Assembly (NCBI RefSeq): GCF_018861025.1
Contig: NZ_JAHKQH010000041.1
Span: forward strand, 1 to 64,000
Length of the DNA stretch: 64,000 bases
Source of the DNA: Psychrosphaera sp. B3R10
GTDB lineage: Bacteria; Pseudomonadota; Gammaproteobacteria; Enterobacterales; Alteromonadaceae
Reading direction: 5' to 3'
The notes beneath the pieces are model-generated. The model was not told where the DNA came from. It searched no databases and saw nothing but the letters and a program-made list of their open reading frames with translations. A program made the position numbers and the translations under genes. This document shows positions 14,117 to 18,632 of the stretch, in pieces (within the stretch, counting starts at the first letter, position 1; every line of letters begins with the position of its first letter).

Positions 14117-14878
14117 TTAGAATTTAAATCCTTTGTGTAACGCGACAATACCGCCGGTTAGGTTAGAATAGTTAACTTGGTCAAAGCCCGCGCTCTGCAT
14201 CATCGTTTTAAGTGTTTCTTGATCCGGGTGCATTCGAATCGACTCAGATAGGTACAAATAGCTTTCTTTGTCATTGGCAATTAATTGGCCAACGTTAGGT
14301 AATATGTTAAACGAATAAAAGTCATATACCTTGCTTAACCACTCTTGGTTTGGCTTAGAGAACTCAAGTACTAATAATCGTCCACCAGGCTTTAATACGC
14401 GATAAATCGATTTAAGCGCTGCGTCTTTGTCAGTTACGTTACGTAAACCAAATGCAATAGTAACAATGTCGAATGTATTGTCGGCGAATGGTAATGCCTC
14501 TGCATTTGCTTGAATGTATTCTACGTTGCCAACAACGCCTAAGTTTTCAAGCTTTTCACGACCTACTTTTATCATTGAGTCGTTTATGTCGGCTAAAACG
14601 ACTTGACCGTTTTCACCAACGATTTCGCTAAATTTACGCGTTAAGTCACCAGTACCACCGGCTAAATCGAGTACCTTGTTTCCGGGGCGCACTGCACTAG
14701 CATCAATTGTAAAGCGCTTCCAAACCCGATGAATTCCCATCGACATTAAATCGTTCATAATGTCGTATTTCGCCGCGACAGAATGAAAAACATTTGCGAC
14801 TAGGTTTTGTTTGTCATTTTTGTCTACAGTTTGGTAACCAAAATGGGTTTTTTCTTCGGATTTAAATTCTGAGGTCAT
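14117..14878 (-). CDS. ubiE: Demethylmenaquinone/2-methoxy-6-polyprenyl-benzoquinol methyltransferase
   Basis: SAM-dependent C-methyltransferase of ubiquinone and menaquinone synthesis. The SAM-binding motif [12 protein letters not shown] is near residue 70, with post-motifs [14 protein letters not shown] and [13 protein letters not shown]; the N-terminal signature [11 protein letters not shown] and length (253) match UbiE. First gene of the ubiE-ubiJ-ubiB unit. Confidence 0.97.
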
Positions 14879-15034: not shown

Positions 15035-15538
15035 ATGCGCATACTTATTTTTATCGTGTCATTGATTTACACCATGAACCTTGCCGATGCCAGTCAGCAA
15101 GCGCTTTTGCGTGTTCAGTGGCAACAATTAGAATTGCAAAAACACACTTTAGATAAAAATCAAAAACTCAGTCGAGTTCAGGCGCTGACTGCTCAAATTC
15201 AATCCAATAACTTAAATGCTACTCATGTTTCGCAACTCTATAACGATGTTTTTGAAACGGGAACGGCGAATGACGCTGAATTAGCATTTATGAAATGGTC
15301 GATGTTATCTCAACTAGGCTTTGACTCATCTGCTTTTCGGTTGGTCTATTTAAATCAAAATAATCATAATCAAGTAGCCTTATTATTTAACAGTAGTGAT
15401 GGCGCTCGTATTTTGCTTCGTGACCAAGTATTAGATAAAGCTGAATTTAATGAACATTTAAATTTACAACACTTGTCGGTGGTATCTGTAATCGACCCTG
15501 CGTCGGTGCATTTTAGTCGTGCTGGAACTCGAATTTAA
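15035..15538 (+). CDS. LapG-like periplasmic protein lacking the catalytic cysteine
   Basis: A 167-residue protein with a signal peptide ending ADA/SQ near residue 20. The mature part follows the layout of LapG-type transglutaminase-like proteases (BTLCP): a helical start with WQQLELQKHTLD and QKLSRVQAL, then GTANDAELAFMKWSML with QLGFDSSAFRLVYL, where LapG has a GDCEDFSIAKY motif and LRELGxPxxxLRLVYV. By this alignment the nucleophilic Cys is replaced, and the whole protein contains no Cys. The His position reads NQVALLF where LapG has HMVL, and the Asp region reads LLRDQVL. It is therefore predicted to be proteolytically dead. A LapD-like gene starts 48 bases downstream, which supports the family call. 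The alignment is from memory, so the alternative is an unrelated small periplasmic partner of that receptor. Confidence 0.65.
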   Translation: MRILIFIVSLIYTMNLADASQQALLRVQWQQLELQKHTLDKNQKLSRVQALTAQIQSNNLNATHVSQLYNDVFETGTANDAELAFMKWSMLSQLGFDSSAFRLVYLNQNNHNQVALLFNSSDGARILLRDQVLDKAEFNEHLNLQHLSVVSVIDPASVHFSRAGTRI

Positions 15539-15586
15539 TAGTGAATTGTCGCTGAATTGTTATTTGTGATCTTTTGAGGTGTTGAA

Positions 15587-17527
15587 TTGAAACTTTCCCG
15601 TCAGCTGTTTGTAATCCACAGTTTAATTATTACCCTCTTAGTCGCCGGATACGCGTGGCTTTCTTTGTTAAACGTAAGGCAACTTACGGTGCAAGAGTTA
15701 GTGAATCAATCGAATACTGCTGCCCAATATTTATCTGACCCCCTCCATTTGGCGTTAATGTCTGCAAACCAAGAACTCTATCAAGCCAAAATAGACAGTT
15801 TTTATGATGCGGGGAATTATTCACGTATTAGTTTGTTTGCAGCGGATGCCACTAAATCCGTTTTATATCAACGTACTGATCTCAGCGCTACCGCGGGGGT
15901 GCCGCTTTGGTTCCAAACGATATTGCCACTAGAAGTTATAATGGGAAGCCAAGAACTGTATCGCGGTATTGATAAAATTGGCGAGTTGGAAGTTGAAATA
16001 CATCCATATGCGTTTTATCAGTTTATTTGGCGACAGTTTACCGACATGTTATCTATTACTATTTTTGTCGGACTTATCGCATGGGCTTTAGGGCTCGCTC
16101 TTTTTAATATTGTATTGCGCCCCATTAGCGCGGTTCAACGCCAGGCGGCAGCTGTTGCTAATAAACATTATCCACAAATAGAAACTCGGTCAGGTATTGC
16201 TGAGTTTGAGCAGTTGATTCAAGCCCACAATGATATGACCAAACAAATTAAAATTTTGTTTGATACGCAACAGGAACGGATGGATGAACTCAAACATAGC
16301 GTTTATCACGATACCGTGTCGGGATTACCTAACCGCGAATACTTTAACTCTGCCATAACCGATGTGATTAACACAGAAAATGACAAGGTTCATTGCGGCT
16401 TGGTGGTCGTGCATTTAACTAATTTGGGTAAGTTGAAACTCGAACAGGGTTTTCCTACCTATAAAACGGTACTTGAATTTGTAAAAAATAGCGTCGAACG
16501 AACCCATGGTTTAGGCAAAAACATTCAATTATTTCAATTGAACGAACAAGAAATGGGCGTTTTGTTATTGCATTTTGGGGCGCAGGAAATTGTTGATTTT
16601 ACCAAAGACATTGCAAAGCAGATGGTCGATTGCACGCCTTTAAAAATATACGGCGGTGCCGTTTTAGGTGCAGTTGAGCTCTTAGAAACGGATACCAACA
16701 AATCACTGTTAAAACGAGTTGATACTGCGCTTAAACATGCGATTACCCAAGGTAAACGGTTTTATGTTGATAGCTCCGTTGTTAATGAGGCGGGCTCAAC
16801 GGTTTATGGTTCTAAAGGAGAGTTATTAGCAGCGATGGAAACAGCACGAGTTGAGTTCTTTCTTCAACCTGTAGTTTCCACCAGTCAAAATACCTTGTTG
16901 TTTACCGAGCTATATACGAAGTTGACGGTCAACGATCAGCCTGTTTCACTTGGTACTGTTATTACAATGGCTGAAAAATTTGATGTAACTGCAGTGCTTG
17001 ACCAACGGATCTTAGAAGAACTTCATAAACATTTTTTATTTGGCGCTGTCGCGGGCAAAATTTCTATCAATGTATCGGCATTTTCACTTAAGTCCGAAGA
17101 GTTTATGAAATGGTTAGTGGAAATGTTAGAAAGCTCACCGGGGTTGGCTAATAATTTGATCATGGAATTTGATGAAATAGATTTGTCTCACTGCCAAACT
17201 GCGCGCGAAGCCAGTTTTAGAATCGCCAATATGGGGGTGCAAATTGCAATCGACCACTTTGGTCGTGGCTCAAGTAGTTTGGCGAGATTTTCTGATATGA
17301 AAGTTCATTGGCTAAAACTCGATAGCCGGTATATTAACCATGAAGACTCGTCGGCAAACAAAGACTACTTAAGTATGATTTGTGATCTCGTTGATAAACT
17401 AGGTGTTAATGCGGTTATTCCTAATATAGAAACTCATACACAGCTAGACTTAGCAAAAGAAGTAGGTGCATACGGCGTTCAAGGATTCTTAATAGCAAAA
17501 CCACTGTCAATTTATGAGCAAATCTAA
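15587..17527 (+). CDS. LapD-like inside-out c-di-GMP receptor with degenerate GGDEF and EAL domains
   Basis: A 646-residue inner-membrane protein: TM1 (about 8-28), periplasmic LapD/MoxY-type domain (about 29-150; FYDAGNYSRISLF, GVPLWF, LEVEIHP match LapD), TM2 (about 151-173), HAMP, GGDEF-like domain without GGDEF (LNEQEMGVLL), and an EAL-like domain whose EAL reads TEL and whose second catalytic Asp is His (AIDHFGRGSSSL). Residues typical of c-di-GMP binding (QP, SINVS, WLKLD, VQGF) remain, so it probably binds and does not cleave c-di-GMP. Position 128 is Ile in LYRGIDK where Pseudomonas LapD has Trp125 (SRGWEQ), the residue that anchors LapG. The start is TTG, with GAGGT six bases upstream. 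It probably forms an operon with the LapG-like gene. Confidence 0.85.
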   Translation: MKLSRQLFVIHSLIITLLVAGYAWLSLLNVRQLTVQELVNQSNTAAQYLSDPLHLALMSANQELYQAKIDSFYDAGNYSRISLFAADATKSVLYQRTDLSATAGVPLWFQTILPLEVIMGSQELYRGIDKIGELEVEIHPYAFYQFIWRQFTDMLSITIFVGLIAWALGLALFNIVLRPISAVQRQAAAVANKHYPQIETRSGIAEFEQLIQAHNDMTKQIKILFDTQQERMDELKHSVYHDTVSGLPNREYFNSAITDVINTENDKVHCGLVVVHLTNLGKLKLEQGFPTYKTVLEFVKNSVERTHGLGKNIQLFQLNEQEMGVLLLHFGAQEIVDFTKDIAKQMVDCTPLKIYGGAVLGAVELLETDTNKSLLKRVDTALKHAITQGKRFYVDSSVVNEAGSTVYGSKGELLAAMETARVEFFLQPVVSTSQNTLLFTELYTKLTVNDQPVSLGTVITMAEKFDVTAVLDQRILEELHKHFLFGAVAGKISINVSAFSLKSEEFMKWLVEMLESSPGLANNLIMEFDEIDLSHCQTAREASFRIANMGVQIAIDHFGRGSSSLARFSDMKVHWLKLDSRYINHEDSSANKDYLSMICDLVDKLGVNAVIPNIETHTQLDLAKEVGAYGVQGFLIAKPLSIYEQI

Positions 17528-17624: not shown

Positions 17625-18632
17625 CTAGCTGTCGGTAAATACTCGATTTCGTCCGGTTGCCTTAGCCATTCTCATTGCCGATGTGGCTTTTTGTAACGTA
17701 CCTTCAATTCCGATTTTAGGATTATATGATGTTACACCGAGGGAAACGGTAACTTTGGGTAATCGTTGACGGTTTTTAGCATTAACAAATTGTAATTTTT
17801 CTACGCCTTGGCGCACTTTTTCGGCAATCTCACCTGCAGTATGTACATCAGCCTCAGGGATCATGATCAAAAATTCTTCACCACCGGTGCGAACCGGCAA
17901 GCCGCTATCCGCGACGTAACTTTTAACTTTCTGAGCAACTTTAGATAAAATTACGTTTCCTATCGTGACACCGTAGTTATCATTAAATTGTTTAAAGTGA
18001 TCGAGGTTTATGGCAATCGCCGCGATGTTTTGAACATCGTTACTGACCCACATGTCGACAGTTTGGTTTAAAACCGAGCGATTAAATAGTCCAGTAAGTT
18101 GGTCGATTTGTTTACTTTCTTCATACTCATCTATTTGTTGTTGAAGTTCCGCTGTTTTCGCCTGTGCTTGGCGTAACGCTTTCAACAATACGGTCTGAGA
18201 ATTTTTCATCGAGGAAGAAATCTTAATGAGTCGGTCGATGACCTGTTTCGACAACGTTGTGTCTTCACGGTCTAACATCGACATGCCTTCATCTAATATA
18301 GAGATATAGTTCGACGTGTCTTTATGTGCTTTTGTTGCATGTTTTTGCGTGGTGGATACGACATTGTGAACATCATCAACAATGGCTTCTTGCTTGGCGT
18401 CTTGTTGTAAAATGAAGTCTTTGTACAATGACTCCATCAAAAATGAATCTATGGTTTTGCCGGCCTTTAAATCACGGTCTAATGTTTTTGAAATGTCCTT
18501 ATTTGTTTCAGCCATATACTCATATACAACCCCATAATTTATGGGATTGGCTGGCAAACGATGTTGTTTCAAAAAACCTAACGTTTTTTGTAACATGCCG
18601 TCAGCTTGCTCTATGGTATCAAGGTATTTCAT
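17625..18632 (-). CDS. Soluble diguanylate cyclase (GGDEF)
   Basis: A 335-residue protein without signal or membrane helix. The N-terminal ~165 residues are helical and charged, ending in a predicted coiled coil (ALRQAQAKTAELQQQIDEYEE). The GGDEF domain has GGEEF near residue 248. The residues at the inhibitory-site position read ADSG, so the RxxD I-site is absent and product inhibition is not expected. It converges on the LapD-like receptor and could supply its ligand, which is inference from position only. Confidence 0.9.
   Translation of the reverse strand: MKYLDTIEQADGMLQKTLGFLKQHRLPANPINYGVVYEYMAETNKDISKTLDRDLKAGKTIDSFLMESLYKDFILQQDAKQEAIVDDVHNVVSTTQKHATKAHKDTSNYISILDEGMSMLDREDTTLSKQVIDRLIKISSSMKNSQTVLLKALRQAQAKTAELQQQIDEYEESKQIDQLTGLFNRSVLNQTVDMWVSNDVQNIAAIAINLDHFKQFNDNYGVTIGNVILSKVAQKVKSYVADSGLPVRTGGEEFLIMIPEADVHTAGEIAEKVRQGVEKLQFVNAKNRQRLPKVTVSLGVTSYNPKIGIEGTLQKATSAMRMAKATGRNRVFTDS

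Follow-up and report, generated by a model that had tools for sequence, protein, structure and literature searches.

What does a LapG-like protein without a single cysteine do beside a LapD-like receptor that has lost the tryptophan by which LapD holds LapG? This question is raised by two adjacent genes in a stretch of 64,000 nucleotides (the window) on contig NZ_JAHKQH010000041.1 of Psychrosphaera sp. B3R10. An earlier note on this DNA had described the two losses and had proposed a non-proteolytic output of cyclic di-GMP (c-di-GMP) signalling, or a competition with a true LapG encoded elsewhere. In this study we show that the small protein is a homologue of LapG, the cysteine protease of the Lap system. 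On balance we lean towards the view that this LapG-derived pseudo-protease (pseudo-LapG) is a non-proteolytic periplasmic partner of the LapD-derived c-di-GMP receptor, and that the pair signals without proteolysis.

LapG ancestry and the lost catalytic residues

The ancestry of pseudo-LapG is hard to see from the window protein alone. Its Pfam scan gave no PF06035 match at E up to 1, no LapG model was matched in the NCBIfam scan, and a single-sequence search of the PDB reached LapG at E 0.99 only. As single-sequence searching was this weak, a profile of four rows, one per orthologue, was needed to reach LapG. This profile matched LapG of Pseudomonas fluorescens in the PDB (4u65_E, E 7.8e-5), it was aligned by hhalign with 12 true LapGs (96.8%, E 3e-10), and it found the LapGs of the order with a best E of 1.9e-8. 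An AlphaFold model of pseudo-LapG (predicted template modelling score, pTM, 0.69), whose input held no true LapG sequence, likewise had LapG as its top match in the PDB. On the evidence of profiles and fold we reject a chance resemblance, and both bear out the LapG outline that the earlier note had recognised; the predicted structure is LapG-like and transglutaminase-like, and the LapG fold thus seems to be kept.

We aligned the four pseudo-LapGs with 37 true LapG rows, in which one gene is repeated at some loci. The window protein contains no cysteine at all, as had been claimed, and the same is true of the three orthologues. Where LapG has its catalytic cysteine, the window protein has Asp and the others have Glu, Glu and Gln. 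The acidic residues around the cysteine in the LapG motif GDCED have a role in calcium binding; in the four pseudo-LapGs this motif is replaced by ANDAE, ATEAE, ATQAE or GNEAE. The column of the catalytic histidine contains a gap in the window protein and Gln, Gln and Glu in the orthologues, so that the claimed absence of an aligned histidine extends to all four. His111 of the window protein lies about two residues off this column and is not common to the orthologues, which have no histidine N-terminal of residue 141. The claim that the aspartate was missing too does not hold for the window protein: its Asp130 aligns with the Asp of the triad, although this column is sensitive to the alignment, since the orthologues have Ser there and Asp one residue later. 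Pseudo-LapG is also shorter than LapG and lacks the WGxxDYWATP segment preceding the cysteine, and near its C-terminus SV[IVL]DP stands in place of the SFN of LapG. Among 67 distinct LapG-like open reading frames that we compared, 61 have Cys, His and Asp, two are cut off after the cysteine and four are the pseudo-LapGs, in a sample collected mostly by Pfam matches and hence biased toward intact LapGs.

Judged by these sequences the pair is unlikely to cut LapA, because pseudo-LapG has neither a nucleophile nor GDCED and because in two of the four genomes the models used detected no substrate or secretion system. Could the acidic residue at the cysteine site instead support another reaction that needs no cysteine? 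An Asp or Glu stands in this column in three of the four proteins, and the column of the triad Asp, or the position next to it, is occupied by an Asp. However, the fourth protein has Gln at the cysteine site, histidine is missing before residue 141 in three of the four, and GDCED is gone, so that a new enzyme of this kind appears the least probable of the explanations that we considered.

The receptor and its tryptophan site

The second gene encodes a receptor that keeps the periplasmic landmarks of LapD, in agreement with the earlier note. LapD_MoxY_N was matched with 58.3 bits in Pfam (cut-off 25), and the predicted output domain (pTM 0.61) had CdgS9 (4u64) and LapD (3pjv) as its top PDB matches. 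The sequence itself matched the cytoplasmic module of LapD in the PDB (3pjw, E 2.4e-27) and its output domain (3pjv, E 2e-7). The GGDEF and EAL domains are both above their Pfam cut-offs, and the HAMP match reached 21.6 bits (cut-off 25). The LapD model of NCBIfam is the best-scoring one, yet with 235.8 bits against an equivalog cut-off of 1020. In the carriers' receptors the GGDEF signature reads NEQE[MD] and the EAL signature ELY; binding of c-di-GMP is putative. The start codon is TTG in the window and ATG in the orthologues.

At the site of the LapD tryptophan the window receptor indeed has Ile128 (RGID), and its three orthologues have Leu. In the LapD literature the GWxQ motif is described as strictly conserved (PMC3032553, PMC4359373), and the LapD variant W125E is reported to show no LapG binding (PMC3032553). 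We compared 73 distinct LapD-type domains. Tryptophan was found in 62, Ile, Leu, Leu and Leu in the four pair receptors, and Ala in three; two others belong to different sensors, namely a G103 histidine kinase and a G097 protein of GGDEF-EAL type, and two are partial. The three receptors with Ala (G099:C44, G123:C18 and G142:C12; L078 4857-6800(-), L079 6385-8328(+) and L080) each lie beside a LapG with intact Cys, His and Asp. Either LapG is retained by other means in these three, or they have no need of the tryptophan.

As such, a missing tryptophan is not in itself a sign that LapG activity is gone. The earlier note had spoken of two matching losses: both are found in all four carriers, and no orthologue keeps the cysteine, the aligned histidine or the receptor tryptophan, but a rule that ties the tryptophan to LapG activity is too strong in view of the Ala-bearing LapDs. 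Neither of the outcomes that would have contradicted the earlier note, a predicted fold unlike that of transglutaminases or homologues with an intact triad and tryptophan, was observed. Of 81 LapD_N matches in 147 genomes, 73 have LapG at most 4 kb away, and the remaining eight are the four pairs, G123:C78 with its decayed lapG, the two other sensors and a match at a contig end (G143:C83).

Distribution, other lap genes and conservation

The search of related genomes that the earlier note had proposed found the pair in four of eight Psychrosphaera genomes, namely the window genome (G000), G004, G005 (Psychrosphaera haliotis) and G007; G001, G002, G003 and G006 have neither gene, so that the two are present together in four genomes and absent together in four. 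In all carriers the pair lies between a methyltransferase gene and a cyclase gene, which directly adjoin each other in all non-carriers. We take the methyltransferase gene to be ubiE; this name, like lapC and lapE, was given by reading. In an unrooted tree of four flanking proteins a 100/100 branch splits carriers from non-carriers, and a single gain or a single loss would therefore be enough.

Outside the genus the searches did not extend this list. In 295 genomes of the family no carrier of pseudo-LapG beyond the four was found at E 0.001. A search of 394 genomes of the order with the pseudo-LapG profile gave matches in 130 (E 0.01), counting the window genome itself; cysteine status was read for the 14 best places and a few weaker matches, so that the order may contain further pseudo-LapGs. 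After the window, all 14 best places have the Cys, His and Asp motifs (some spelt EADCED or GDCDD), and weaker matches in G368, G401, G414, G210 and G191 are LapGs with GDCED. The matches G400:C12 and G527:C4 were judged to be noise, and G022:C13 (E 0.003), with no LapD in its neighbourhood, was read as chance. In the class (369 genomes) no match except that of the window genome reached E 1e-9, a threshold too strict for distant relatives. On plasmids the ten best receptor matches of 1655 records are 22-24% identical, and a search of viral contigs gave no relative of pseudo-LapG. LapG relatives as such are encoded on 60 viral-labelled IMG/VR contigs (L124-L183); the 34 loci viewed show mostly small GDCED proteins. 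The pair is real, conserved and unusual, and in the genomes searched it was found in part of one genus only.

Is there a true LapG with which pseudo-LapG could compete? A separate intact lapG was found in two carriers. G007 has an ordinary lap cluster elsewhere, with intact LapG, Trp-bearing LapD, LapB and a LapA-type retention module (53.2 bits). G005 has a cluster with intact LapG, Trp-bearing LapD and LapB as well, in which a number of genes are broken into two frames and the retention module scores 48.0 against a cut-off of 50. For the other two carriers the search was negative: neither the window genome nor G004 gave a LapG match (for the window genome, no Peptidase_C93 match at E 0.001), and matches to the retention module and to LapB (LssB/LapB) were far under cut-off. 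Near the window pair there is no LapA or LapBCE. The non-carrier G002 has an ordinary LapG-LapD pair, with no LapB or retention module above cut-off.

Competition with a true LapG is hence possible in G005 and G007; in the window genome, which has no LapG match, it is unlikely. More generally pseudo-LapG might be a decoy that occupies LapD or the cleavage site of the adhesin and so shields the adhesin from true LapG. The ordinary clusters alongside the pair in G005 and G007 would suit such a function, but it is improbable, and we reject it for the window genome, as the pair is also kept in the window genome and G004, where a LapG match and a retention module or LapB above cut-offs are missing.

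It might also be possible that the pair is a relic, a duplicated lapGD on its way out. Catalytic and docking residues are lost, decay of lapG occurs elsewhere in the order (stops and frame breaks in G123:C78, a gene cut short in G103:C16), and the receptor gene of Psychrosphaera haliotis is frameshifted. On the other hand, the pseudo-LapG frames are open in four species at 39-63% protein identity with 45 invariant columns, and they bear little resemblance to the decayed lapG seen in G123. Non-synonymous divergence (dN) is below synonymous divergence (dS), with dN/dS of 0.28/1.87 for G004-G005, 0.49/1.63 for G005-G007, 0.67/1.89 for G000-G005 and 0.61/2.00 for G000-G007, although these ratios are rough because dS is near saturation, and two pairwise comparisons yielded no dS. 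Given open frames and dN below dS we reject plain decay, and we consider a relic very improbable.

A proposed signalling pair without proteolysis

If the pair signals without proteolysis, pseudo-LapG would still dock on the periplasmic domain of the receptor through a changed interface, and the state of the receptor would be set jointly by this docking and by c-di-GMP from within the cell. Its output would no longer be the release of an adhesin. It may be a cytoplasmic effect such as the binding of a partner, for example the cyclase encoded next door, or pseudo-LapG may be presented to, or withheld from, another envelope protein. We see an even chance that a protease-sequestering switch has become a pure signalling pair in this way, either with a periplasmic cue read through pseudo-LapG in the cytoplasm (outside-in) or with a non-cutting LapG shown to a new envelope target. 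In P. fluorescens LapG binding is reported to be itself an input that drives LapD, with c-di-GMP, into a dimer of dimers (PMC5231407). That partner and receptor have been kept and the protease has not fits a role as ligand, in which pseudo-LapG would still bind the receptor. The neighbouring GGDEF protein is a possible partner of the receptor; as non-carriers have it too, this cyclase does not depend on the pair.

Several observations weigh against a non-proteolytic partnership of this kind. With the anchoring tryptophan lost, any interface must have changed, and, taken with the reported failure of the W125E variant to bind LapG, the simplest forecast would be no docking in the known way. The five AlphaFold models of pseudo-LapG are uneven, with a mean predicted local distance difference test (pLDDT) from 73 down to 49. 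Pseudo-LapG evolves faster than the receptor and ubiE (identities between G004 and G007 of 54.5%, 74.6% and 91.3%, respectively). A 100/100 branch with a length of 2.54 changes per column sets the three intact receptors apart from 29 other LapDs, and the canonical mechanics may not carry over to proteins on so long a branch. The same branch means that the pair is old or was once fast-evolving, and it does not support a recent duplication from the lapGD genes that the genus itself has. Finally, the receptor frame of G005 is split by a frameshift. In that assembly UbiB-like, cyclase and type I secretion system genes are likewise split or short (L098, L070, L071), which speaks for indel errors in the sequence, without proving them.

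Have the two proteins perhaps ceased to cooperate? The receptor could be a stand-alone c-di-GMP receptor or sensor and pseudo-LapG could act on another envelope partner, their linkage being transcriptional only. The lost tryptophan anchor agrees with this, and LapD-type periplasmic domains do exist without LapG nearby in the histidine kinase of G103 and the GGDEF-EAL protein of G097. However, the two genes come and go together in the genus, and the models predict that the LapG fold has been retained. We find this explanation unlikely, if more serious than the decoy, the relic or the new enzyme.

The signalling pair that we favour resembles LapD-LapG of P. fluorescens, CdgS9-LapG of Legionella and BpfD-BpfG of Shewanella in its lapG-lapD gene order, its presumably exported LapG-fold protein, its LapD output domain and its GGDEF-EAL module with degenerate signatures. 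It differs from them in having no cysteine, no aligned histidine, no GDCED, no GWxQ tryptophan and no WGxxDYWATP, and no LapA or LapBCE nearby. DvhG-DvhD of Desulfovibrio vulgaris also combines a LapG-like protein with a receptor without the LapG-anchoring tryptophan, but DvhG is reported to be proteolytically active, with its triad in place, and DvhD to combine a dCache domain in the periplasm with an HD-GYP output, having no LapD domain (PMC13090378). This system shows that regulation without that tryptophan exists. In the YfiBNR system of Pseudomonas aeruginosa the small periplasmic protein YfiR is reported to set the state of YfiN, a c-di-GMP protein whose periplasmic domain resembles that of LapD, and so provides a precedent for the action of such a small protein on a LapD-like domain; YfiN is, however, a diguanylate cyclase (PMC3838380). 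Our small protein is related to LapG, and its Pfam and NCBIfam scans gave no YfiR match. HvyA of Caulobacter is a periplasmic LapG relative (BTLCP) that acts outside the Lap system, but its function is reported to need the catalytic residues (PMC4241560).

Neither a LapG pseudo-protease nor work on this pair was found among the matches listed in open-access literature. If our reading is true, the pair would represent, in the literature searched, the first branch of pseudo-enzymes within the Lap family, and a natural case in which the partner was kept and the protease dropped in strains where no LapA system was detected. The pair also cautions that the lapG-lapD gene order alone is no proof of adhesin control. 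The features of the locus are collected in Table 1.

Table 1. Coordinates of the pseudo-LapG and receptor genes, their key sites and the flanking genes within the window
Feature	Position	Strand	Basis or remark
ubiE-like methyltransferase gene, divergent from the pair, one flank of the two-gene cassette	14117..14878	-	
Pseudo-LapG, 167 residues, predicted LapG / transglutaminase-like fold	15035..15538	+	Profile and fold evidence
Putative signal peptide of pseudo-LapG, residues ~1-19	15035..15091	+	Hydrophobic N-terminus; presumed from reading the sequence only
Asp80 codon, column of the LapG catalytic Cys (GDCED)	15272..15274	+	Alignment; orthologues Glu, Glu, Gln
Asp130 codon, column of the triad Asp	15422..15424	+	Alignment; Ser in three orthologues
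LapD-like receptor, 646 residues, TTG start, 48 bases 3' of the pseudo-LapG stop codon	15587..17527	+	
LapD/MoxY periplasmic domain (PF16448), predicted LapD output-domain fold	15656..16030	+	Pfam, PDB match, model
Ile128 codon, turn between predicted strands 118-126 and 129-138	15968..15970	+	Loop that bears Trp125 (GWxQ) in LapD
Degenerate GGDEF signature NEQEM	16541..16555	+	RGGEF in P. fluorescens LapD
Degenerate EAL signature ELY	16907..16915	+	KVL in P. fluorescens LapD
GGDEF protein with intact GGEEF motif, convergent with the receptor	17625..18632	-	

Other lapG-lapD loci showed changes of their own. The lapG with stops and frame breaks in G123:C78 (L058, upstream of 1429; L184) lies beside a Trp-bearing LapD, in a genome that retains other LapG-LapD pairs, and gives a picture of true decay. 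In G103:C16 (L185 2167-2535) the lapG is cut short after the cysteine, and the LapD alongside has its tryptophan. The lapG position beside a LapD of G029 (L122 6057-7754(-)) is taken by a protein of 565 amino acids with matches to PF06035 (28.4 bits, cut-off 27) and to the reprolysin-like metallopeptidase family PF13583 (56.6 bits), possibly a fusion of two proteases by its sequence.
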